64,000 nucleotides of DNA from Panorpa germanica (Eukaryota; Arthropoda; Insecta; Mecoptera; Panorpidae). Below the pieces are notes generated by a model. The model was not told the DNA's origin. It searched no databases and saw nothing but the letters and a program-made list of their open reading frames with translations. The translations under genes and the position numbers were made by a program. The stretch lies in assembly GCA_963678705.1 (NCBI GenBank), contig OY783219.1, forward strand, positions 5,580,001 to 5,644,000, read 5' to 3'. Below, in pieces: positions 2,283 to 53,000 of the stretch (its first letter is position 1; every line of letters starts with the position of its first letter).

Positions 2283-5200
2283 AGGCTCGGGCTCGAAAGT
2301 GGGTTCTTCCAATTCTTCGTCAAGGTCGATATCATCAGCCTTAACATCCTCCTCACCTTCGGGTGATTCTGGGTCTCCAGCTTTCTTGCCTGGACGTTCT
2401 CCGAACCATTTGGGCAACTTGGCTACACAATCGAAAACCAACGATTAAAAAATACAATCTTCAAAATATGAATTGTTTCAAAAAGAGGTTATTTACAAAA
2501 CTTATACATTGTTTAAAAAAAAAACACATTTACTCAAAAGAATTCAGGGTTTTAAAATAGTGTGTTTTGTATTTTGTAAAACTAATTTACGATTCGATGA
2601 TGGAAATATTTTTTAGTTTGTCATTTAAAAATGCTGTACAATGGGCTTGTGTCCTTATTTTTTAGTGGTCGATTTTTGAATTGTTGATTGAAATTGATGT
2701 TAATAAATGTGTATTGGCGTGTCTATTTTATTAAATATCTAAATGTTGACGGAGATATAGCAATTAAAAATTTGAATTTTAGTTTTAGCGCTAGAGTCAG
2801 TTATTTGTTGAGTAGGTCAGTGCTGTGGTAATGTTTTGGAGCTGTTGGTAGTCAAAATAATCAAGTCAAGTCAAAGAATAATAAGTTTTCATTTTATTTA
2901 ACGCTTTTACGGCAGGCATAATATTGAAATTTTATTGTTCCTTGAAATAGCTGTAAATAGTATTTGATATATAAATACATATAGCAGAGATTTATGATCT
3001 GTAAGGTTGGCAGCGGTTGTGATGTCACGTGCATTTGGAATGTGTACAACATTGAATCCCTTTAATAATTAAAGAGACAAAATGACTTTTTTAATTGTTA
3101 ATATCTCCTTACTATCTCCTAATATCAATATATAGTACACTTTTATAGAAGTTAAGACATAGGACACGAGCCCATTTATTAGCTGTGTACAAAACTTACC
3201 TTTCTGGCGACCGCCGAATTGTTGGCTTCTGTCGGTCCAGATACGCTCAAGACTTTCCTTATTTTGTGTTTCTAGTCCCTATGGATGAATTGTTATTGGA
3301 ATGTAAATCAAAAATGCAGGATAAATCAACAACTAAATGCAACATATAACAATCCACTGTAAAATGAAAAAATCATTGCTTGTTGAACTTGGAAGTTGTG
3401 AAATAGATGTCTTATTAGACATTGTGATAAATTGTAGACAATTAGGCGTATATGTAGCCTTGCGTTTTTGTTCAATAAATATTTCATTGATATAAGTTTG
3501 TATTAGACAACTTCCAAGCACGCTGCGTTCAAGAAATTTGATTTTACAGTGCTATAAAAGAGGGTATGGGGTCGCAGACTGCACTATCTTTGTACAGGTT
3601 AGCCGATTCGGCGACTGCTAAGATTTGAATTAAGTAGATATATGTTTTAGAAGAGAAATCCATTGGTCCAGCAGCAGATTGCTAGTTGCTTTTGTGACAT
3701 AAATAGCAGAGAGAAACCTTATATAATCTTCTTCCTTAAGTTCGTTGATACAGTAAGAGAAAGGAGTCGGAAAAGGAGATGATTCGAAAGAAGGAATTGA
3801 TTGGAAAACAAGAAAAGGTGTAAAGGAACTATAATTCGAAGGGCGGATTGTAATGCTGGAAGGAGAGAAACAACGAAAGAAAGAAGAGTTTGTTTTGGTT
3901 TAGGGAGAATGTTGAAGTGAAAATATCCAGTAAACATTTTGGAGTCACTTTGCCATCATATTGAAGACGCGTCTGATTTTTTTGTAATGAAAGAGTTCAG
4001 TTTCTAAGGTCGTTAGGCTACAAATGGCGAAACTACTCGATCTACCGGAATACAAATGAAGATAAAGTTGATGCGAACTATAATTGAAGTGCAATAGTGA
4101 TAGAAACGTCTCAAAACAAGACACGTCACCAAATTGTTTACTGGGTAGCAAAACTGCAACAGTAAATTAAATGAGCCAATCAACAAGTTGACCAATGGAT
4201 TTTTCCTGCAATAAATGGGTGAGATTAACAACAAATTAGGGTATTTCTCGACGAAATGTTCAATTTGATATTTCTGTGATATTAATAAACACTGAGAGAA
4301 TAAATAATAACGGAAAACGATATAATTATTAACAACATCATAAGGAATCAAGTAACATGTAAAGAAAAAGACAAAGGGGGTTGTTTTTTTTAATAGTACG
4401 ATAAAGTAATGTAGACGAACACATTGAAAATCGACATGGGGGCTAACACATTTACGAAGAAAACAACGTGCTTAGCAACACGTGCCGAAATCCCACGTGG
4501 ACTTGACTTACATCGTTTACGTTTCATGAATTGGTCATTTCGTTTCTTCCACGTGTGCTCCATGGTTTCCGACAATAATGTGTCGTAACCCTGAACAAAA
4601 GTTCACTCTCTTAAAAATATTCTTAGCATTTGTTTGATTATAAAGGTATTAATCAACGGACGGTAATTCCCGAAATTTTCTCATCGAACTAAAGTATGCT
4701 ATATGGGATTGAGCTAATTATTTGGAAGGAAATTCTACTTACACCCTCGAAGAGCTTCTTCTTGTCGTCGTAAGACCTTGTGTCCACACGACGTTCATAT
4801 TTGGAGGCGACTTGGATCTTGGGCTGCAAAGAACACCAACAATTAACGACTGAACCACCACGATCATCATCTAATTATAGATTAAGGAACTTACGGGGTA
4901 TTTGCCAGTAAGGGCTTCTGGGTCTAAACCCTTCTTTAAGGCTTTGTGTCTGAGTTGTTGTTTCTGCCTTTCTTTCAATTCTTTAAGATCGTAATCTTGA
5001 CGTTTTTGACGTTCCTCAAGATCGTATTTCTCGGTCTCCAATTTGACAATTGTTTCCCAGAGTTCAGTAGCCTTATTGCGAAGTTTGTCAATATTCAAAT
5101 TTTCAACATCTAGTGGTTTAATACGGAAAGACAGAGAAATTTTCTTTTCTTCTTCCAATTGTTCCTTGGTCTTGTTTCTTTCAATTTGGGCGGAGGAGAG

Positions 5201-8200
5201 GTTGAACTAGAAATGGTAAATTACAGATTATCTCACTGGAATTTGAGCAGGTTTAGCTGGTGATAAAGGGTGATAATTACGTTGTTGTCCTTCTTGGTAA
5301 TGGTGAAATTGGGGCCGGTTTTGTTGCTGTCCTTCATGGCTTGAAGCATAGCTTGACGCTTCTTCTCAGCCTCTTCAAGACGACGACGCTTCTCTTCAAT
5401 ATCACGTTGTTTCTTTTCTTCAATTTCACGGACGCGACGCTCTTCTTCTTCCTTCTTGCGTTGAGCCATGCGTTTTTCTTCCTCAGCGCGGGAGACCTTG
5501 CGCTTGGCTTGCTTCTCCTTGAGACGCTTGAGGTCCTCTTCTTCTTTGGCGCGCTGTTTACGCCATTCGTTGATGTATTCCTTCAACTGATCATCGAGGT
5601 CGGATCTCTTCTGGTCCTGACGCTGTAAATATTTGCAAAATACAACTAATTAACTTCCGAACCCGAAAAATGAATTTCTGCAATAACCTCCAAATAAATT
5701 ACCTTGATGAATTCAGGATTCTCACCCCCATCCCTAAAAAATTCAAATATCAAATTAATATAATATATTTATGTCAAAGTTTGTTTAATAATTGAATAAG
5801 CGAAAGACATATTTACAAAAGTCAGCCATTTAAAAAATATCTATTAAAAAAAAAAGGAAAATATTTTTTTTTTTTTTTTGGAAACCATTCATTGTTTGAT
5901 CATGCAGGTAAATTAGGTTTTCCATTTGTTAGTCGACAAAGCAGTAGCGGAATTTGTTGGAGGAAAACATTTATAGAAATTTTGATGAAAACTTTTATAA
6001 AAGTGAAAATGAAAACAAGAAAAACATATATATAATAGGTACATTTAACATGTAACAAATATATCAGTAGATTTCCTTTTCTTTTGGATAAAAAGGATTT
6101 AAAAAGGACATCAGTTCATGTCGTCCTGGTAGAAATACCTTTTTGCGATGAAGCACTTATATACTAAACATTGAGCTGTTTTTTTTAAATAGAAGCCAAA
6201 CCATTTTTAATTGATGAATCTCCAATTATTTATCAATCACAACAAATACAGATAATAAATCCTTGCCAGAAGTTGTCCATAGATAATATTCTATTCAAAA
6301 ATGAAAAAAAAACTATTCTTTATTAAAAATTTGTAAAAAAGCCAATCCAAAAAAATTAATTAGCTGTTATTAATTACAAAACGTAGCAGAAGTATTAAGC
6401 AAACAATACAAAACTGTCTTTTTATTATTTGTATTGTTTGGTATTTGATTTCCTCACAAAGATAATAGTTTATTTCATTAAAAGAAACATACATCTGGAG
6501 CATTTCTTATAAACACCCACTTCTGACACCAATAATTTTAATTTTTTTTAATTTAAATTTATTTTTATTGCGATCAATAAAATTAGAACTACTAATCTTT
6601 GTGATAAATCATTGAAAGCAAAATAAAACATATTTGTTTATAAAAATAATTGGAGAGGCTTTGTTTTTATAAACTACTGGCAAGGAAATAAATATTTCTG
6701 TAATTACAAAATAACTTACTCAGTTTTTACGACCGTTCTTCATAATTTAATCAATTTTACCGGGAATTATGATAAATCAAGCCCAGGGTTGTTGTTTAAT
6801 TGTGTGTTTTTTTTATGATTGTAATATTTGTGGTTTTTTTGGGTTTTTATATTTTTGATGGGCACGGTGCGGTAGAGTAGGAACCAAGGAGAAAAATAGA
6901 AAGAAAAAAAATTGTGTTAAAAACTATTTTTTTGTTTTCTTAAATAATTACTAATCACACAAAATATTTTTACTAATTAAAAATATATTAATTCTAAGTC
7001 ATTCTACTAAGTCTATACTAATTAAAGTTTCATTTTCTACTAATTTACTAATTGCACGGGAAAACGCATCATCGAACTTGGTAAGCATCAATTTTCTGGA
7101 AAACTATAACACCTACAAACATGTTGTGTTATTTTTCTTGTAAATAATAACATTATCTACAACTTTGATTAATGACTTTTTCTTGTAACTTTTATAACAT
7201 GAAAGTTATAAGTAAAAATAAAACTTAAATATATTTTTGTTTATAACTTTTCTACTATAAAAGTTACAAAGAAAAGTTATTAAGAAAAGTTGTAGATAAT
7301 ATTATTATCTACAAAAAAGCTCTTTACTAAATTTGTGTACGACGTATAGTTTTCGAGATACATAAAAGAAATGATTACATTCTTATTTTCAAGATGGCGA
7401 CCGAATGGAGGCGCCCCGATCACCTTTTACTTATTGCTTATCCAAGTAACACGTTTCCCCAACTAAATCAATTTTCAAAAAAGTATATCTGGAACATTGT
7501 TTTTTAATTCATAAACTTTGAATTTCAATTAATTAATAATACAACTGCAAATTATAATGTTCTAAATCAACTTTTAATGAAATTTTTGAAACTAATTACT
7601 AACTAAAGTACTAAAATAAGCTAGGTAGTTAAAAGCAGTCTTCTGTTAAATTTGCATTTCAAAATTTTACTTCTAAATTATATTTAAAGAATTTTAATTT
7701 TTAATATTTCTTCAATTCTAATTATTTAGCTATATTATTAAGCATGTATAACTAATCTATTCTTAATTGTTAATGAGAGTAATTAACTATTAAACGATTT
7801 TATTTTACCAAAACAGCTACAACAGAAGTTTCAACTTACTTGCTGAAATATAAGAAAGAAATAATTATTAATTATGGTGTTTATAATGTTAAAAATTTCG
7901 ACTAAACACAATTACGTATATTTTACATACAAAATATAGTTTTTATAAAAGATCTATATAACAGTTTTATAAAGAATCTTGCAGACTATATATTTAAAAG
8001 AAATTTTAAGCAAAAATGTTACATTATATCTCGTACAGATTGGTGACATGCGACATCCAACATTTATATATTTTTATACATAAATTTAGACATAAGTGTA
8101 CTAAATGTGTTGTACTTTTAACATACAGACTAGTGCGACACTAATAAAACCTTTACGTATGCTATTTTAAAAAATTCTAGTTAGTATTTTTATGAAACAA

Positions 8201-40834: not shown

Positions 40835-41876
40835 CTGAACAGAGGTCATGGAATCTGATTGCTGATTCAAGAGTAATATATTAGAAAACAATTTTGAAGA
40901 GCACAAGGTTTTAATCATAAGGTACTACCAAGAATATATGGTATTTTTAATAATAAGACAGAGTAGTTGCCTACTTGCAAGGGGTAAATTAATCTATGAA
41001 GATTTTTTTACAATATATTGACCTATTCAATCTTAATTTTTTAAAGTTATTAAATTAATTACTGGTTGTATATATGTAAAAAAACATAAATCATAATTTC
41101 TACAATGATTTACTAATTTAATAATCAATATTTAATTGTTATCAGTAGAATTATAATTAATAGACTCTTATATGAAAAGATTTTTATCGATTGTCATTGT
41201 TGAAAAATATATTTAAATGCTGTAAGAACATGACAGATAAGAAAATTACTGTGGAGTGAATCACAGAGCCTCTTCAGGTGCATATTGACAAAAATAACAG
41301 AATAATAACAAGAAAGATATTCCTAAAAGAAAATTTATATACATTTTTGCATATCCCGTCTATTAAACATATTATAATTAATGCTAAATAATGATAAAAA
41401 ATATACCCAATTATTAATTTTACTTTCCCGATCGCTGTATCTCCTTTGGTTATTTGACAAGGTCTCAAATATATAGAGAAATATATTTTTACTTAGAGAT
41501 ATACTTTTTCTTAATAGATTTTATTTAAAATTTAATATATTTTTTAAAATAGTTTTGCTAATACCAAACAAGCAATTTTCATGTGATTTTTAATCTAAAG
41601 CATTTAATCTTCAAAATTTATGAACCTACCTTCATTATTTGATTGACATGTGCTAATTATTGATAACACACTAAGTTACTAGTTGCGTGAGCGATGTTAC
41701 CTAATATGTATATAAAATTTAATATCCTATTTAATGGTTTTTTGAAAAATAAATTGACCTTTTTGCTGGTTAATAGTATAACCATGAAATTTCTCATATT
41801 ATATAATGTTTCATATTAAATTTCATGATAATGGCTCTTGCATTTATTTACTGACAATGCAAACGAATGGGCTTCT

Positions 41877-42035
41877 AGACCATGTAACCATTTCTAATAA
41901 ATGTTAGTATATATTGATAAAGTTGGCTACCAGAACCTTATAAATGTTCTTATATTTAAAAACTCCTTATATTTTAGGAGATATTAACAATTAAAAAAAT
42001 CATTTTGTCTCTTTCATTATTAAAGGGATTCAACG
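41877..42035. mobile_element. MITE family A, truncated copy
   Basis: Matches the end of family A, from TATATATTGATAAAGTTGGC to AAAGGGATTCAACGTT. The rest is absent. Confidence 0.65.
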
Positions 42036-42325
42036 TTATAGAAAATTCTAATTATTTCTTCAGTGACGTATTATGCATATTTAAAACATGCGGCAAGATT
42101 GAAATTCAATTTTGATATAGCTATAACATCCTCAGCTTTTAGGTATTTAAAAAAACAAAACTCAAAACATACAGATAGTAATATGTATTTGTAGATGCAA
42201 GTTAAAAGGGTATTAATTAATTAATATTTGTGGATTTACATATAGTATACAAAAAAAGTATTGACGTTATATGTTTGGAAAGTTTCTTTTGTCTTGCTAT
42301 CAGCATAGCGGTTTTATCTACATCG

Positions 42326-42393
42326 TAGCTCCGTTGGTGAGACAACGGATAAGATATGCCTCCATGTGACAACAAGTTCACGAGCTGATGTAC
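42326..42393 (+). other. tRNA-like relic (possible SINE head)
   Basis: TAGCTCCGTTGGTGAGACAA looks like a tRNA D-arm and A box. AGTTCACGAGCT about 45 bp later is a weak B box. The acceptor stem does not pair, so this is not a working tRNA. Confidence 0.3.
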
Positions 42394-43667
42394 CGTTGAA
42401 GATGTATACTGTGGTGTTCAAATACAGGAGCATATTATAAAAGCATACAACGCATTGTAAATGAAACATTTAAATTTTCCGACAAAGGAACTAAAAATCT
42501 GCATTCCTCTATCTTCAAAGGACGATATTTCTTTATGATCTTTTATTAATTAGATGGCGTCAAATCTTTGCATAATAAAGATCATAAAGATCAAGTTTCA
42601 TCCCGTTTTAGGAATATAGGCATAATCAACTGTACAGTTATTTTTAAATTACATTTGAATGTACCGCTGGATTTAATCGAAGGTCTCTGCCACATCTGTA
42701 GATTCATAAAAGAAGCAATTGTATTCTTTAAAAATGATTTCATTATTTTATTACAATTGATTTGTTGAAAGTATTCAATAATAATACAATTACATATTAA
42801 TCGAGGTATTTTGGAATTTAAAAACAAACTAACTTCTTATTTATATATTTGGTTTTTAAATCACGCGAATATTTATTATGGACTGCATAGCTCAAATCTA
42901 TTGTTAGATTAAATAACTATATGATAAAACTAATGAAATAATTATTAAATAAATATTTTAAAATGTATAAAATATAATTTACAAATAATTTAATGAACTA
43001 TATAATTAGTATGCATTAATTGCAAATAGTTATATATTTTAAAATTAAATAAAGTTTAAAGCACAGGTTGTCAATTTGAATTTCAAGTGAGTGTGGCGCG
43101 TTCTTGTAATGGTAGTGATTCTGTGTCTTGTGTTTTTAATAATTAATTAAATATATATATTAGTGTTAATTAATCTAAAAAATATATAGATAATGTAAAA
43201 TATATACTAGTTTATTATTTCAAATAGTTTTTTATATTTAGAAAGTGTAGTTTTTAAAATTATTGTGTCTTAAATATCAAACATTTACATTTCAGTAATA
43301 TGTTTATTTCCGTTAAAGTTTGAACAAGTTTAATATTTAAGTTAGTGGATATATAGTTTATACAGTGTATTAAAAATCAGTGTGTATTGTTTTAATTACA
43401 TCAAAGTCTTGATATTAAATACAGGGTTAATAATTATGTTTTTAATAGCATTAGAATATACTTGTAATTCTTTATTCAAAATTTTGTGATAATGTGAGTT
43501 TGTGTGATTGTGCCTTTTATTGGGATATCATTGCGGGGACGCTATCTTGCAACATCTTAATAATTAAAAGGTTATTAATAATTTAATTTTTAATACATAT
43601 ATTTAATTTATATTGATACATTGAAAGTTTTAAACAGTATTTAGCATAACATTCTTTTTTATTACAG

Positions 43668-43707
43668 GCTTCTTGACGATCTTTTGTGTCGCTGCAATAA
43701 GCCAAAG
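43668..43707 (+). other. Isolated exon-like segment of unknown gene
   Basis: An excellent acceptor (TTTTTTATTACAG) is followed by 40 bases that translate as LLDDLLCRCNKPK and then a GTTGGT donor. No partner exons were found. It may be part of an unrecognised or noncoding transcript starting near 43080. Confidence 0.25.
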
Positions 43708-43860
43708 GTTGGTGAATTTCTTTTAAGCATGGGGATTTAACATATAATATATTCTATTATACTCTATGGGGTTTAACAAAATATTATGTCCGGTTTAATT
43801 AAATTATTACATAAAAGTATATAAAGCTTAAACATAGTGTATTGTGAAACATTTTGTTGG

Positions 43861-46800
43861 TTACTGAACAACCAACTTGTTATGTGAATTTAATTGTTCA
43901 AAATTGTCAATTTTCGAATACAGGACATCGTATTCCTTCTGCAATATAATAAGATAATTCGTTATTATTCTTAGTTAAAGATATCATCAAATAACAACAC
44001 AAAAAATGACATAATTGTATTTAAGAACCTTTACCTTAGCATGTATGACAAATACATCATTATCTATATCCATAAACGCATGGCATTTATTCGCAATAAG
44101 GACCATGAAATTAGCAGCACTCTTCAATTCATTAAAAAAAAGTTCATCTTGAGGTGTACTTATCATTAAAGCCAGGTTCTTGAAATCAATCAAAACAAAT
44201 TTGGTTGTCCTGTAAGAAAAACATTACAACGTAATTTCTTTTCAAAGTGCCAAAGAATAGTTAAATATTTAAATAATTTTATTATTTATACTTTTGGTCC
44301 ATATTATATTTCATTCCAAAAAACAAAAGCATCTTTTCTTGATGTTGTGATAGTTGTTCGTTATTTCCGTGAACTATTTTAAAAGTTATTTCTGGGTTGC
44401 CGTTTTCAAATGCATTGATTGTTAAATATGCTTCAGCTAGGTCATTATTATTCATAATAACCTAGAAAATAAAACAATAGAGCAAATAATCGACTAAGCG
44501 ATGCATGAGTCACAATTTATTATTGCTTTTACCTTAAATAATTTATTTATATTTTCTGACAGGTTGTTTACAAGAATTTTAAAACTTTCTTTATGTTGCT
44601 CTTCCATATTTAATAATTGCAATCTCATATCATCAATTTTTTTTCCAATTACTTTTTGGGGTTGTATATCCTTCTTTGAGAAAGGCATACACTATACAGC
44701 AAAAAAATTCAATAAATCAATAATATTTACAGTATAATAATAATTCAGTTAAGCATGTTGTATAAATTTGACATGTATGTACATTAGGCTAGTCCTTAGC
44801 ACCGAAAAAAATATTTTTTTCCTTTTGGGTTAGTATACTAACTTATTATAATAAGTAAGTAAAAGTTTTCTGAAATCTAACAAGTACCCAAACGTGACTA
44901 AAATTATAAAACAATTAATAATTCTATATTCATTTATTCACTAATATATTTCTATTTTTTTTTTTAATTTTTTTGCAGATTTTTTTTAAAACTCCAAAAG
45001 AAAAATTTCTAATAATTGTAAATAATTCTAATTTTTTATAGAAACGCATTTCATTTTTTCGGAGCTAAGTTTTAAAGTCAATTAAAAAACTTAGGGAGTG
45101 AGACCGTAAAAGCAGCGAGGTTGAAAAAGAAGGACCAGTCTAATGTACATTTATAAACAATTTGGATATTTACAATTTCGTTGAGGATTTTTACTTTTTC
45201 TAATACATTTTTGAGGTTTTCAAAAATGGTTTGCAAATTTCTGCGGTTCCTTGCTTTTACCAAACTATCGGTATTTTTAAATTCTTCTTCAAGAGCGGAA
45301 TAATCTGTTAAACTGTTAAAATCAAATTATATCAATACTAAATGCAACTCAATATATCAATATATTATCTACTTAAACTTATAAACAATATAGAAAATTT
45401 GATTACCTTCGATCTTCCGCTATATTTGTCATGATACCTCCTTCACATGTTAGTACTCTTCTTCTTGCACTTTTATTCACTTTGATACCCATATTCAACT
45501 CCTAAAAATAAACAAAGTTAATAACATTTAATAGTTTTTTTATTTGATTTTTCTTGCTATCTGCAACTTACAATAGTTTTTTTCAACAGTAAAAACATTT
45601 CTCTTTTGAGAAAGAATAGATCAATTTTTGAACAAGCCTGTTTCAGTTTTAGATCATAGACTTTTTTACGGGTTTCCTCCAATTTCGTTTTTGTCTGAAA
45701 TATAATTTGATAAGTTTCCTAGCTTTATATTTTCCACATAATTTGTAAACACTTACATTATCATATTGTGCTCGTTTGAAGTCCATTAAGTCTTCATTTG
45801 CGGACACTATATTTTCATTCATATTATACTCTTTTTTAGTTTTTTTTACAAGCTTTTTACAGTCGTTTATTTTTTGGTTTTGCTCATTCAATCGGTCCTC
45901 ATTTGCTTCACTGATTTCTTTCAATTTATTAATTGTATCTGTGAATTTTTTATTATTTAATAAATATGCTTCTCTATGCATGTTTAATTATACTTCTACA
46001 CAGTTATATTTTAAGACAAAACGAATTTGCAATAGAAATACCTTCTAACTTCTTAGCATAGTCTTCTATAAAGTTGATCCCTTCTAACGTTTTTTTAATA
46101 TCAATATGCAAATCACATTTTACTTTCATATATTTCAAAATATCTATGGGGTATATTATCTCTTTAAGGTTTAATTTGCATGACACCTTATCAATCATTA
46201 ATTTGATTTTTTCTTTCGGTGACACATATAAATTCTGCAAATATGTTATTTGTGTTTTAGAGGCTTATATATTTACAATTAAAATAATTAGTATATATAT
46301 TTAATTTAATCACCGCCAAGTTGAAAGTCTTAGACATAGCGAAATCAGAATAAAAACCTTCCAAAATTTCTTCATTCAATAGACTGATCCCACTGTGTAA
46401 ATCATCTTCACTAACTAACATTTTTACCTATATTATAGAAATTAAACGTTTATATAAATTATCTAATATCTAATAATTAGGCCAACAAAACACTTACGAA
46501 TTCTGTAGTAGTTATCAAATTTTCTTCCAAAACTATCATAGAATCATTCATTGTTTCGTGCATTATATCATAATTTCCACCCCAAATATCACCATTCTTC
46601 CAGTAAATTCTGTCATTGGGTAGCAAAAGCTATAATTTCAAAAAATATATATAATTTATTATTAAAATATTATCTTTCGTTGTATAAACATGTAACTTAC
46701 AGTTTTTCTTGCTTCTTCCTTTAACCGCTGAAATTCTATTTCATCACTACAATAAATAACATCACCAAATGGAAATCGAGCAATTTTCTTTCCAGTAGTA

Positions 46801-49591
46801 GTTGAATTATTTGAAAATTTATCAGCTAGTGAAGGAGTTCCATCCCTTAAAAAAATTAACAATGATTTTGATCACTTTACCATAATTAACATGCTAATAA
46901 ATATAACTTTCGAAGTTACTAGGAAGCAAATAAATAGTACCTAGAAATATTTGGGAGAGTTGACTTTGTTATAATCATTTTTGGGTCGACTGATATACTT
47001 AATAATTTGTTTTTATTTCTTGTATCTTCAACGACGACTGCTTTCATATATTTGTTCATGCTAAAAAAGTTTTTCTCCATATTCGTGATGTTATCATCTG
47101 GTATACATATTTCATAGACCTGAGGAACCTAAAATAATAAAGTAAATTAAATTTTTATAAATAAGCTTTTCTTTATTTATGTAGCTTATAACTTCGCCGA
47201 ACATAGATTTCTGCATAGTTATCAAACACAAATAAATTGAATGAACAGTAGAGATTTTTAAGAAGCTATGATTTTTATTCTGAATATTTACTTTAATCAA
47301 ACGATTCTTAAACTCTCGGTCTAGCGACAGTCTAGTGTTTGATTGTAGCTCCACATTTACTTTTTCCAACTTCTTTCTATTGTTACGTAACTCTAGACAT
47401 ACCAAGTCGATATATTTTTCTGGATTTCTTCGTTTTCTGATGATTTAAATTTATATTAATGATTGGCATTTTAAATCAATTTATTTTTTACAAATAATTT
47501 AATTTACTGCTTACATTTCTTTTCTTTGTTTGCTCCACTCTTGATTCCTTCTTACTAATAAGTTATAGTTAGTATTTAAAATTCTGTTTGTTTCATTATC
47601 ATCCTCAACTGCTTGCTTAGATTGCCTGACAAACACAGACTCCCTTAAAAAAGTTTCAGCATTTGGGCCAGTGTATAAAGCTTCCTATAAAAAATAACAA
47701 AGACATTAATAAGGCTATATTTGTTCAGAAGAAAAACTACACCAATATAAAAAGAAATTACCAATTTTTGCATGAAAGTTAAAGGAATAAGAGATGCTTT
47801 ATACTCTTCATTAATGTTGTCTGGAACGTAACTTGTAATTTCCATAAGCAGAGTAAGATCGTCTTCAAATTTCGGTTTTTCCGCTAAATATTCTTTTAGT
47901 ATCAGTGACAATTTTTTTATTGTACGATCAACACCTTTAATTTGTTTTTTAGTAGAATCATTTATTTTCTGCAGAAGTCGATATTTGTTTTCCGCAATAT
48001 CCATGTCACTAAGCTAAAAAATATTAATCTGAATTATGTTATCTAAATTTTAAACTATATAAATCTAGATTTTTATTAAATTACCATTTCTGCGCTATTT
48101 TTAATGTGTTTCATTAGACCATATTGTAACTTATTAGCTTGATTTTCAAACTTCATTTTCAATTTCTTCAGTTCTGATATTTCTTCCCATATATTATCCA
48201 AAACATTCTGATGTGCAACAATATCTTGCTCTTTGTGAAACAAGTCGAACAAAACTAACTTTTCGTTTGCCTCAAACTTAAAAAAAAAACCAAATTTATT
48301 TATTATTTAACTAATTATAATGGGCCTGTGTACTCATTTTTTGGGGGTCGATTTTATAATTGTTGATTGAAATTGATGTTAATAATTGTATATTGACGTT
48401 TTTGTTTTATTAAATATTTAAATATTGACGGAGATTTAGGAATTAAAAATTTGAATTGTAGTTTTAGCGCTAGAAATGGTCGGCTATATTTATGACGTAA
48501 CATGCCCCACTATTAAGGAATATAAACATGACTATGTATAAATAGAAATATATACTTACGCAATTTATCCATAAATACTGCATAATGTCTTTACATTCTA
48601 TCTTATGTAGCCGATTTACAAAGATTTGCTTTCTTGTAGTTTTAGCTATTTCCAGATTGTATTCTTCCGTGGTTATTAATTCTGCTAAATTATTCTTATT
48701 TTCTTCTAATTGATTGCTAATAAAATATTAAATTTATTTATAATTACATTATTTAGAATCTTAAATTAGTGATAAATATATTGTTATTGTTTTACCCAAT
48801 TTCAAATACATCTGTTATACTTTGGAACTTCTTATATAATTTATCAACTTTTGTAAAATCAACGTTAACCGCATCCCAATCTATATCTCTTTCGGTTATA
48901 AATTTCTTATATTCAACTGGCAACACACTCTACAATAATTTAAATAAAAATAATCAATACAAAATAAATTATTAAAGTTTTGAAAATATTAAATTCTTAT
49001 TTATATAATTACCTCATTATTTATTTCATAATGTGATGAATTATCTTTAATTTTCCGCGAAAGAACTGTATCATCGTCTAACAAACAGCTAACAGAAGGT
49101 CTGTAATTATAAATATTTAAAAAAATAAAACAAGCATAAGGGAATTAGGAGAAAATAGAAGAAACGACTATTTCAAAAGCATTACCCCATTTTTGGATCA
49201 TCGCTAGCGGATTGTAAGTCATCTACATCTGCATTAATAGATAGAACGAACTTATAAGCTCGGATTAAGTCAGAAATACCTTTAAAAACATTTATAATTA
49301 CATAAATTAGAATACAACTGAAGCTCTTAGAGTTAGGAACTTTTAAGTAAAATTAAACTTTAATATAAGATTTTTTTTAAAAGGTAATAAAACATAATTA
49401 AGTAGTATCAGAAATAGATCGATGTTAAATTATAGAAGAACATTTTCTTCTACAACACGTGATATTAAAAAACAAATATATTTACCTGTTTTATTTCCAA
49501 TTATTGATGAAAAATTATCTTTTAAATCAATTGTAGTATTATATTTAAACGATAGGAAATTTTCAAGAATTAATCTTTTTATCGCAGACAT
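43861..49591 (-). CDS. SMC1-like coiled-coil protein with degenerate ATPase heads
   Basis: Twenty-two minus-strand exons keep one frame for 1087 aa: 49486-49591, 49186-49279, 49013-49100, 48796-48929, 48560-48716, 48085-48276, 47762-48013, 47515-47684, 47292-47436, 46941-47128, 46701-46845, 46498-46629, 46314-46427, 46042-46234, 45757-45971, 45572-45694, 45407-45501, 45174-45312, 44533-44691, 44292-44461, 44035-44209, 43861-43938. Architecture is SMC: N-head (IKRLILENFLSFK), coiled coil, hinge at about 440-600 (NKYMKAVVVED, KNGDIWGGN), second coil and C-head. Order and spacing best fit cohesin SMC1. Key ATPase residues are gone: Walker A reads IIGNKTGISDL (no GKS), the LSGGE signature reads LSQHQEK (about 984), and Walker B reads FVLIDF without the acidic pair (about 1008). 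It is likely a fast-evolving, ATPase-dead paralog. Confidence 0.85.
48318..48510. mobile_element. MITE family A, partial copy in the SMC-like gene
   Basis: AATGGGCCTGTGTACTCATT matches the family A terminus. Homology continues through GTTTTAGCGCTAGAAATGG. It lies wholly within the fifth intron (48277-48559). Confidence 0.7.
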
Positions 49592-50061
49592 TTTTTAAGA
49601 TTTCACTTACAACAATTACAGAATTATGCGAAAATGAACACTGAAATATAAAGGTATTTGAAAACCGTTTGAACAACCTTGAAATTATAGCTCGGTAATA
49701 CGACGGTTTTTTAATTATATATCTATATATAAGAACTCTTAAATTTATATTCATAGGTGGCATATATGAATACTCTATTTAGAGTACTCTATTTGAATTT
49801 TACAAATAAAAATAATAATATTTGTAAATTTAATAAGATACTAAACTAGTTGTTTTAAATTAAACATCAATTAACAAATAATTGTATTTATTTGAAATGT
49901 ACACAATAACTTTTCTTTTTAATTAATACACAATTTACGTAAAATAATATATTTAAACAATTGGCTAATACGTACAAATTTATAAAATATTAAACTAGTA
50001 CTTAAAAAAGAACAAATAATTTGAATTCGAACAGTAAAAATTTAATTTCTATGGCACTTAG

Positions 50062-53000
50062 TTAATGCTTATCTAAAGCTAGCGTTAACAGCTCGTTCAT
50101 AGAAGTTAATAAAGTCCTTGGATCCTCCACAAGTCCTGCTCCAACCATAGCATTTGCGAATAACTGTAAAAATATTGAATATTGATTAAAATAAATATTA
50201 TATATATATGCGTAATTACAAAACATGAATTACCTGTTGAGTAACAAGTTTGGCAAGCTGGGCATTCGTTCCTTTCAATTTATGCAGTTTTTTGATTACG
50301 GGATGTTTTGGATTAACTTCCAACTGTGGTTGTAACAGCGTATATCTATTATCCTCTGGAATTTGATGGCTCTGAGTTCTGATAAAATGACGGGCAGCCG
50401 CCATTTCTTCTACTGTTACTACGCAGGGGTGTTGATCGAGTCTTGTAGTTGCTTTTACGCTAAACACTTTGCCTGGTAACGTTTCTTTAATCCATGGCAA
50501 TAAATCATCTATCTCACTTCGCTTTAAACTATCATCGCCTAATTTTTTACATAAATTATCTTACATTTATCATTTCAAAGTTTAAATTAATATTAAGGTA
50601 AAACGATACTTGGCCATTTTTAACTCGCGAAATATAGATGGCGATACTATATAGCAGGTTAAATATTATGAAAAAAAAAACATGTTTTTTTATGTTTAAA
50701 TCGTTTTATGTAAGTAACTATAAACGCGAATCAAAATCTAAAGCTGCAATTAGTTAGATGAATAACGTACCTACATTTTAAGCTTTCTTCCACTGACTTT
50801 TAATGAGTTGGAACCGCAAAAATAAGTTTTGAAAATGATTATTGCTATATTTTCTAGTTAAATTCCATTTTTTATATAACTGGTAACATTTCTAAGGGTT
50901 TGTCATAAATTTTATAACCTTTATTATGGTTACGGGTTAAGACTTAAAAATATACAGAGTATTGAATGGCCAAGTATTGTTTCACCTTATATAATATATA
51001 GTTTACCTAGATTAGTTAAATCTGATGCTTCCTTATCTTGACGCATTTCTTTTTCTACAGAAGTAACATTATGACTATTAAATTGTCGTAGTTGCATTAA
51101 AACTAATTCGTCATACGGTTCAAAACAGAACAAAACTTCAACATCCTTTTTCTTAAGAGCTTCGAAATATGGTGAAGACTCGGCCAAAACGCGACTGAAA
51201 TAAATTAGACATTACAAATCGGATCTCTTTAGTTTTATGTTTTAATTGATTTAGAAAAATACCTCGGAGCTGCAAGATAGTAGATATCTTTCTGTCCCTC
51301 TTTAAGCCGACTGCAATATTCTGGTAAACTAACACGAGAACCAGCACCATGAGTTGATGATTCAAATCTCAAAAGTTTTGCAATTTCTTCCTATAAAATT
51401 AAATATATTTTGAAAAAAGCACTTCATATATATGTGTTATTCAGTAATGTTTTATTATTTTACTTTTTCTTGTTGTTCTGAACTCATAACAATACCCTCT
51501 TTCAAAAACATGCCATAATCTTTGTAAAATCCATGAAATTCTTCAGTCTTCTTTACAGATTGATCATGGAGAAATCGCAAAACTCTGTTGGTAAGTACTG
51601 TGCGCAATTTTCTAATTAGAGCGCTATTTTGTAATAGCTCTCGGCTTAAATTAAGCGGAATATCTTCAGAATCAACGACACCTTAAAAGAAAAACTAACA
51701 TTGTATTAAAAAATAAAATAAAAATATTAGCTAATAATATATTAGTCAGAGAAATCCGATGAATTTCTCTGACTACATATCGATCGTTCAGTTTCGAATA
51801 TAAACAATCGATATGTGCACTAACCTTTTACAAATCTTAACCATTTAGGTAAAATATTCTCTGCTTTGCTCTTAATTAAAACTTTTCTTGAATATAGTGA
51901 CACTCCTATATCTGTTTCTCGGCTTAATTCAAATAATCCTGGTTTTCCATCCGGAAAATATAGTAATGCTCTAATAGACAATGGTACGTCTGCTTTATAA
52001 TGAAGAATAAATCTGGGTTTATCATAGGAGTTGCTTACGAAACGGTAAAATTCATTATGTTGATCATCAGTAACATCTTTCGACTCCATCAACCACAATG
52101 GCTGTTGAAATGTATAAAAAATTAATTAAACAACCACTTTACTACCCGCTAAACACAAATGTACTCATGTATTATTTAACGTAATATCTTTTACCTAAAG
52201 TTACATTCTCTTACGAATATTTACCGAAATTTAAGTTGTAATGTTTAAATCAGCAGAATCGAGATTGTTACTAATTAAATTACTATGATACATTATATAA
52301 TTTTGTATAAAAGTCTTTATTACGTCGGAAAACAAACTTATGCCAAAAGATAATATTTGTGATGTAATCTTATAAAAGGTAAACTTATTATGTTAAATAA
52401 AATTTACATAAACGTTAACTGTGTTTAGAGGGTAAGAATTATAGGATATTTCTTATAAATACCTGTATGTTATTAGCTTTATGTCCATTTAAATAAATAG
52501 GACTTCCAACAAAATTACTGTACTTTTTAATTATATCTAAAAATTAAATAATAATTAATATTTTCCAATATTTATATGCACCATTACTGAAATACTTACT
52601 TCTAATTGTATCTTCATCAGCAAATTCGCGGCTTTCAGTCTTCAATGCAATTACAATTTTAGTTCCTGGTTGAACACCTTCTGCTTCCTGTATTTCATAT
52701 GAACCGGAACCATCTGAAGACCATCTGTATCCTTTAGAATTTGCTCTTGATGATTTGGTATAGACAGTTACCTGTTAAATAGTTTATACATTTTAAATAA
52801 GTTTACCTTTAAATTAGGTAATATGTTAAAAATCTGGAATACATACATTTTCAGCTACCATAAATGCAGAATAAAATCCTACACCAAACTGTCCGATTAT
52901 ATTTGATGTATCTCCTGCAGCGCCTTTCTTTTTTAATTGTTCGAGAAATGCTTTAGATCCAGATCTTGCTATAGTCCCTAGATTAGATACTAATTCCTCA

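Follow-up and report, generated by a model that had tools for sequence, protein, structure and literature searches.

The window, a 64,000-nucleotide stretch of Panorpa germanica DNA, carries an SMC1-like gene on the minus strand, with its ATG at position 49591 and its stop codon at position 43861, exactly where a preliminary description of the sequence had placed it. In our model the gene has 23 exons and encodes 1093 amino acid residues in 3282 nt, free of stops and frameshifts. The earlier count was 22 exons and 1087 residues, and our guess is that the gap probably comes from a doubtful 18-nt exon near the hinge. The gene lies between an HSP90-family gene and the V-ATPase c cluster. Its features are as follows.

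43861..49591, minus strand: SMC1-like gene, 23 exons, 1093 aa (GT-AG model, codon frame, introns common with the genome's own canonical SMC1)
48560..49591, minus strand: exons 1-5, N-terminal head with the beginning of the putative N-terminal arm (Pfam SMC_N; score against human SMC1A)
49486..49498, minus strand: Walker A remnant, part 1, GNKT and the first base of G (aligned to GPNGSG of SMC1)
49272..49279, minus strand: Walker A remnant, part 2, the rest of G, then I-S, with lysine replaced by isoleucine (alignment)
47292..48276, minus strand: exons 6-9, putative N-terminal arm
47193..47210, minus strand: exon 10, 18-nt microexon, doubtful (hand-built model)
46498..47128, minus strand: exons 11-13, putative hinge region (two SMC1A hinge blocks; common intron at position 1929 of the coding sequence of the own SMC1)
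46576..46599, minus strand: putative hinge motif KNGDIWGG, aligned to KSGVISGG/KSGIISGG (blocks and alignment)
45174..46427, minus strand: exons 14-19, putative C-terminal arm
43861..44691, minus strand: exons 20-23, putative C-terminal head region (SMC1A block; common introns at positions 3078 and 3258 of the coding sequence of the own SMC1)
44333..44353, minus strand: signature remnant LSQHQEK, in place of LSGGEKT (block and alignment)
44182..44199, minus strand: Walker B remnant FVLIDF, in place of FFVLDE, aspartate kept and glutamate lost (block and alignment)

The model was built by hand, and exon ends were picked manually and for openness of the frame at a time when the canonical SMC1 of the genome was still unknown. 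When human SMC1A or the own SMC1 guided a spliced alignment to the window DNA, the gene was recovered only in part, and the hand-built model was therefore kept. The frame is open across all exons, and all 22 introns, which range from 62 to 482 nt, are of the GT-AG type; the description of introns in phase without a stop thus holds, for 22 introns instead of 21. Exons have a GC content of 0.30, introns one of 0.21. In every one of the 23 exons the chosen frame has the highest codon score of the three, with a score below zero in exons 9, 17 and 23, and both alternative frames contain a stop in 22 exons, all but the 18-nt exon 10. The 81-nt intron that precedes exon 10 has no in-frame stop and might be retained. 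Together with the weak acceptor of exon 16 and the very far divergence of the gene, the doubtful exon 10 would suit a recent or ongoing pseudogene, which was long constrained, is now fading in function and has acquired no stop so far. Some sawfly SMC duplicates on long branches possibly lack coding potential according to their authors, in the available portion of PMC13239252, and they point in the same direction. Against such decay stand the 22 GT-AG pairs and the uninterrupted 3282 nt, given that 1093 codons of the exon base composition would contain an expected 98.8 stops if they were unconstrained, and we consider it rather unlikely. The open frame supports the claim of selection on the protein over long times, and it would be compatible with function having been lost recently.

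The preliminary description had proposed a search for a separate canonical SMC1 in the same genome, and one is present on a different contig (C18). This protein is identical to human SMC1A at 638 of 1217 aligned residues (52%), while the window protein is identical to it at 227 of 1051 (22%). The gene structures are much closer. Thirteen of the 20 introns of the own SMC1 coincide with introns of the window gene, within four alignment columns and in the same phase; random placement of introns gave a mean of 1.78 matches and a maximum of 8 in 50,000 placements. As a control, the introns of the own SMC3 (contig C3) were compared with the window gene, and one of 21 matched. This comparison supersedes a weaker one with human SMC1A, in which two of six introns, their places taken from variant names in the accessible text of PMC10138066, match within one column (P 0.012, random placement). 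Because the introns are common to both genes in place and phase, the window gene is a DNA-level copy of SMC1, which agrees with the SMC1 derivation first proposed. A search of the genome with the window protein gave 22 matches, all of them within its own locus. The window gene is very probably an SMC1 paralog that is coding and has lost its ATP site.

The ATP site is altered at each of its motifs. Walker A reads GNKTGIS for the GPNGSGKS of SMC1, with isoleucine for lysine, and the signature reads LSQHQE for LSGGEK, both as previously described. All four columns of the Q-loop (VFQG) are gapped in the window protein, and the D-loop has ALM for ALD, with methionine for aspartate. Walker B was said to have lost its acidic pair; the catalytic glutamate is indeed replaced, by phenylalanine, but the aspartate is retained. 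Splice forms missed in the model could in principle restore the motifs and make this an active SMC1. We found nothing that supports this idea, and it is extremely improbable. Six motif patterns were scanned in all six frames across positions 40861 to 52591, which includes 3 kb on either side of the gene. The scan found no intact Walker A, signature or Walker B; its sole match was a GKSN string that crosses an exon-intron border and lies between stops. Moreover, intron 1 of the window gene has the phase (1) and the alignment column of its counterpart in the own SMC1 (offset 0), so that the next residue occupies the position of the Walker A lysine, and it reads I.

The window protein was described as having the full SMC layout and matching SMC1, and this stands best for the N-terminal head. 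The whole protein has no SMC match in Pfam, even at E 1. Its fragment of residues 1-141 is matched by Pfam SMC_N with E 1.3e-7 and 31.7 bits, below the curated cut-off of 40, and exons 1-5 score 95 against human SMC1A, a value reached in none of 2000 shuffles (mean 27.7), and 64 against SMC3. The N-terminal head is the only part of the protein recognised by a profile. In residues 1-125 of the window protein, 26 of 67 SMC1 invariants are kept (39%), compared with 16-24% in the other five regions.

The assignment of the hinge and of the C-terminal head, which is based on collinear blocks and common introns, is weaker than claimed. Of all ungapped placements along the window protein, two human SMC1A hinge blocks fit best in exons 11-13, where they are collinear, and GDIWGG, aligned there to GVISGG as the top placement in the protein, would supply the hinge glycines; the region has no hinge match in Pfam or in the PDB (phmmer). 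For the C-terminal head, an ungapped block of 76 residues from human SMC1A finds the best of its 1017 placements in exons 20-23 (4 of 20000 shuffles). The block is weaker against the own SMC1 (52 residues, 128 of 20000 shuffles), and this head also lacks an SMC match in Pfam or the PDB (phmmer). MAFFT places the signature region differently. We preferred the ungapped block, since over its 66 residues LS, F, D, AL and NF line up with human SMC1A and no gap is needed; this is a choice, as the own SMC1 has no NF and has one residue fewer at this point. Within this 66-residue block, only 2 of 43 invariants outside the ATP motifs are kept. On this alignment, the ATP residues are not singled out for loss, the C-terminal head having diverged throughout, and it may be unable to fold as an SMC head. 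A match of this head to 2'-5'-oligoadenylate synthase 2 (E 0.0011) surpasses every SMC match of the fragment; it was rejected, as its two stretches alone gave E 0.92 and 68 and nothing similar was found in Pfam.

The heptad signal of the arms is weak. Between fixed anchors, the spans on either side of the hinge are 65 and 58 residues shorter than in the own SMC1, and this similar shrinkage fits arms that still fold against each other. Such shortening by about the same amount, along with the persistent GG motif and the collinear hinge blocks, speaks against a neofunctionalised coiled-coil protein, one that descends from SMC1, no longer does cohesin work and uses the fold of the N-terminal lobe as a scaffold while the remainder has diverged towards a different use. 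The concentration of kept invariants in the first 125 residues, the hinge and C-terminal head that Pfam and phmmer do not recognise, and the weak block against the own SMC1 are what this reading would predict, and it is possible, if not probable.

The own canonical SMC1 and the window protein have in common the apparent order of N-terminal head, arm, hinge, arm and C-terminal head, the places and phases of introns, and the GG motif of the putative hinge. The window protein differs in its low identity, in being about 130 residues shorter, and in the loss of the Walker A lysine, the Q-loop, the signature glycines, the catalytic glutamate and the D-loop aspartate. As far as the available text of PMC5373644 describes it, the closest known system is SMCL-1 of Caenorhabditis elegans, an SMC-like protein predicted to be unable to hydrolyse ATP and proposed to regulate its parent complex. 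Both proteins are derived from an SMC and have an imperfect signature and a Walker B without the glutamate. However, SMCL-1 is a condensin-type protein that retains Walker A and is missing the hinge and arms (PMC5373644, same portion), whereas the window protein descends from SMC1, has lost Walker A and, with 1093 residues, probably keeps a hinge region and arms. Second SMC1 copies specific to a lineage, like that of the present genome, are also reported in arthropods, as SMC1A/SMC1B in Daphnia (PMC2680839) and as sawfly duplicates, some of them on long branches (PMC13239252); the accessible parts of these two papers, the first of which also names vertebrate SMC1-beta, do not describe a loss of ATPase motifs in those copies. 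SMC1-beta resembles the window gene in being a second SMC1 paralog within one genome. It is a catalytically competent, meiosis-specific SMC that arose by a different duplication.

SMC1 is an essential component of cohesin, the ring that keeps chromosomes together. Cohesin loading and loop extrusion are considered to require hydrolysis of ATP by the SMC1-SMC3 heads. For the window protein, we propose a role as a cohesin-linked, non-catalytic mimic of SMC1, to which we give about an even chance. A DNA-level duplication of the cohesin SMC1 produced the paralog, which stayed open and coding and, as its sequence shows, lost the residues for ATP binding and hydrolysis. We infer that the protein still forms a rod folded back on itself and that its hinge is sufficiently preserved for pairing with one of the SMC3 proteins of the genome. 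Such a dimer could not hydrolyse ATP, because both composite sites need Walker or signature residues of SMC1. It might hold chromatin as a passive strut; alternatively, the window protein might draw SMC3 and kleisin off active cohesin. Its use is perhaps confined to one tissue, such as the germline.

The genome has three SMC3 genes and two SMC4-type genes, all with intact motifs. One SMC3-like gene, on contig C2, is intronless, and two intron-bearing SMC3 copies have a dN of 0.14 and a saturated dS. A more elaborate proposal, which we hold to be unlikely, is a second, specialised cohesin that pairs the ATPase-dead SMC1 with a divergent SMC3, for example that of the intronless gene. Its ring or rod would bind chromosomes independently of loading or loop extrusion powered by ATP, and could serve as a passive germline cohesin or a built-in inhibitor of active cohesin. 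The duplication of SMC1, SMC3 and SMC4 in this genome hints at a wide SMC expansion, maybe with specialised complexes.

As a mimic of SMC1, the window protein would be to cohesin what SMCL-1 is to condensin; the two proteins retain opposite parts of an SMC. An almost full-length natural SMC1 paralog that lacks an ATP site would reveal what an SMC rod is capable of without its motor, and this SMC1 copy may shape or restrain cohesin instead of powering it.

The gene model of the SMC1-like gene, which we built by hand, is as follows:

49591 to 43861, minus strand: SMC1-like gene, 23 exons, GT-AG introns, open frame of 1093 amino acids

The exons join into a frame free of stops, as the preliminary description had claimed. 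At the exon composition, 98.8 stops per 1093 codons would be expected in unconstrained sequence, a figure that is uncorrected for exon ends picked to keep the frame open. A codon score, trained on the adjoining nucleoporin gene, ranks the chosen frame first in all 23 exons, with negative values for exons 9, 17 and 23, and both alternative frames contain a stop in 22 of the 23. The GC content is 30% in the exons and 21% in the introns. The model is uncertain at exon 10 (18 nt) and at the junction of exons 15 and 16, where the acceptor is poor; in both places the alternatives, judged by eye, leave the reading frame intact. A polyadenylation-like AATAAA/ATTAAA is found about 60 nt past the stop (43799).

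The SMC1-like gene has several neighbours in the window. An HSP90-family gene resembling TRAP1 (50060-52125) is encoded on the same strand; two of its fragments give Pfam HSP90 matches, and about 0.5 kb separates its 3′ end from the downstream SMC1-like ATG. Segment 59981-63901 is one intronless open frame of 1295 amino acids that matches Pfam Nucleoporin_N and Nucleoporin_C, presumably of the NUP155 type. Seven open frames in segment 19188-33029, six on the plus strand and one on the minus strand, resemble exons of V-ATPase subunit c in a tandem-like cluster, and both of the two tested match Pfam ATP-synt_C. The plus-strand frames at 91-420 and 5257-5628 begin with an identical peptide, and the second sits opposite a frame resembling troponin T, so that a piece of troponin T seems to be duplicated at the window edge.

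The gene is real and unusual, and encodes an SMC paralog predicted to be ATP-dead. Walker A, GPNGSGKSN in SMC1, is replaced by G-NKTGISD, in which K38 has become isoleucine. R57 is replaced by serine, the Q-loop columns are gaps, the signature LSGGEK reads LSQHQE and the D-loop ALD reads ALM. Walker B has changed from V-L-D-E to L-I-D-F. The loss of every ATPase motif, as first described, thus holds for Walker A and the signature, while the acidic pair of Walker B is only half lost, the aspartate being retained and the glutamate gone. Alternative splicing that restores the motifs, named at the outset as a reading that could overturn this one, is not borne out: a search for six motif patterns in six frames within 3 kb matched only a GKSN string, which spans an exon-intron border and lies between stops.

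A profile search for SMC_N covered the genome of 464 Mb in 249 contigs, with the window at C16:5580001-5644000. It gave at least 15 matches at no fewer than 7 loci (grouped by hand, with 13 of 41 first-look candidates scored), and among these matches the window gene was absent. A search of the genome with the window protein gave 22 matches, none of them outside its own locus. The separate canonical SMC1 that had been proposed as a check was found on contig C18, where tblastn identified an ordinary SMC1. Splicing its 21 exons gives a protein model of 1224 amino acids, identical to human SMC1A at 638 of 1217 aligned residues and to the window protein at 227 of 1051. The other seven SMC loci each carry the full set of three motifs, seen in six frames on C1, C2, C4 and at C21:32M, and in the spliced models of the canonical SMC1 and two SMC3 genes. 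The window gene is therefore the one motif-less example among the eight loci examined in this genome.

The introns firmly indicate that the gene descends from SMC1 by duplication at the DNA level. For 13 of the 20 introns of the canonical SMC1, a window intron of the same phase lies within 4 alignment columns (within one column for 6). Random placement, repeated 50,000 times, gave 1.78 shared introns on average and never more than 8, and as a control only 1 of 21 introns of the SMC3 gene on C3 fell within 4 columns and none within one. Six further SMC1 introns have their nearest same-phase window intron 6-21 columns off, and the intron at cds 2506 has no close one in this alignment. In phase order, all SMC1 introns can be recovered among the 22 window introns if the phase-2 introns at cds 1544 and 3029 are omitted, an agreement that is weak alone since most phases are 0. 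Exon 7 is 252 nt long in both genes. These common introns rule out a retrocopy origin or descent from another SMC, and because the window exon ends were fixed before the canonical SMC1 was known, they also serve as a check of the gene model.

Judged by sequence, the case for SMC1 identity is uneven across the regions of the protein. The N-head fragment matched Pfam SMC_N with an E-value of 1.3e-7 (31.7 bits; curated cut-off 40), and scored 95 with human SMC1A and 64 with SMC3, values reached by 0 and 1 of 2000 shuffles, respectively. Against PDB, with E up to 10, 11 of its 17 listed sequences were SMC chains, SMC1A being the top one (E 0.011). Local scores with SMC1A and SMC3 were 48 (7/2000 shuffles) and 43 (53/2000) for the hinge, and 44 (62/2000) and 41 (130/2000) for the C-head. 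Each of the two ungapped hinge blocks was best placed at its expected site. The C-head block of human SMC1A (76 residues from LSGGEK onward) had its top placement of 1017 at residue 990, which is collinear; in reverse, the collinear site was the best of 1157 on SMC1A (score 28; 4/20,000 shuffles). The SMC1 likeness in hinge and head layout that was first described is partly supported by the N-head match and these collinear blocks; in PDB, the hinge fragment matched nothing up to E 10 and neither of the two chains matched by the C-head fragment was an SMC. Nowhere is the sequence evidence weaker than at the C-head: the C-head block of the window protein reached a score of 23 on SMC3 by chance. 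On the canonical SMC1 of the same genome, its best placement of 1148 was the collinear one, but with a score of 16; the initial 52 residues of the canonical SMC1 block scored 7 at the collinear site (128/20,000 shuffles), which ranked fifth on the window protein. A likeness of the C-head fragment (44185-44577) to OAS2, with E 0.0011 in PDB and above any SMC, is probably due to chance; its two stretches singly gave E 0.92 and 68.

In the SMC1-SMC3 pair, each composite ATP site takes its Walker motifs from one head and its signature from the other, an arrangement established for SMC/ABC ATPases. As the window protein supplies neither kind of motif, both sites would be dead. That both heads are required is described in PMC5373644, whose subject is SMCL-1. 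Should hinge pairing with SMC3 persist, a motorless dimer would form; it might serve as a poison subunit, the role proposed for SMCL-1, or alternatively as a passive strut. Among the papers listed by the literature searches, which covered few subscription journals, no title or abstract opening described an ATPase-dead SMC1 paralog in an insect. Related literature comprises work on SMC1A/B in Daphnia (PMC2680839), SMC duplicates in sawflies (PMC13239252), SMC1A splice variants (PMC10138066), and the loss of condensin II and positive selection on cohesin in insects (PMC6759200), as well as PMC10003631.

At least three SMC3 genes, all with intact motifs, occur in the genome, along with at least one Rad21/Rec8 C-terminal match.

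SMC3 and SMC4-type loci elsewhere in the genome (SMC4-type assigned from N-heads alone, set against solved structures)
C21:12.505-12.513 Mb (L016): SMC3, 657/1197 identical to human
C3:1.278-1.283 Mb (L014): SMC3, 645/1197 identical to human
C2:26.708-26.712 Mb (L011): SMC3, intronless, 452/1181 identical to human SMC3
C4:15.76 Mb (L013): SMC4-type, best PDB chain SMC4 (E 6.8e-52), motifs intact
C21:32.03 Mb (L015): SMC4-type, best PDB chain SMC4 (E 3.5e-51), motifs intact

The SMC3 proteins of C3 and C21 are identical at 969 of 1203 residues (dN 0.14, dS saturated), and their intron sets agree except for one small additional junction in the C21 model. From the usual fate of cohesin paralogs, one might guess that the window gene is used in the germline. 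Though no tie between the other copies and the window gene was observed, a specialised SMC1 makes sense against this background of SMC duplication.
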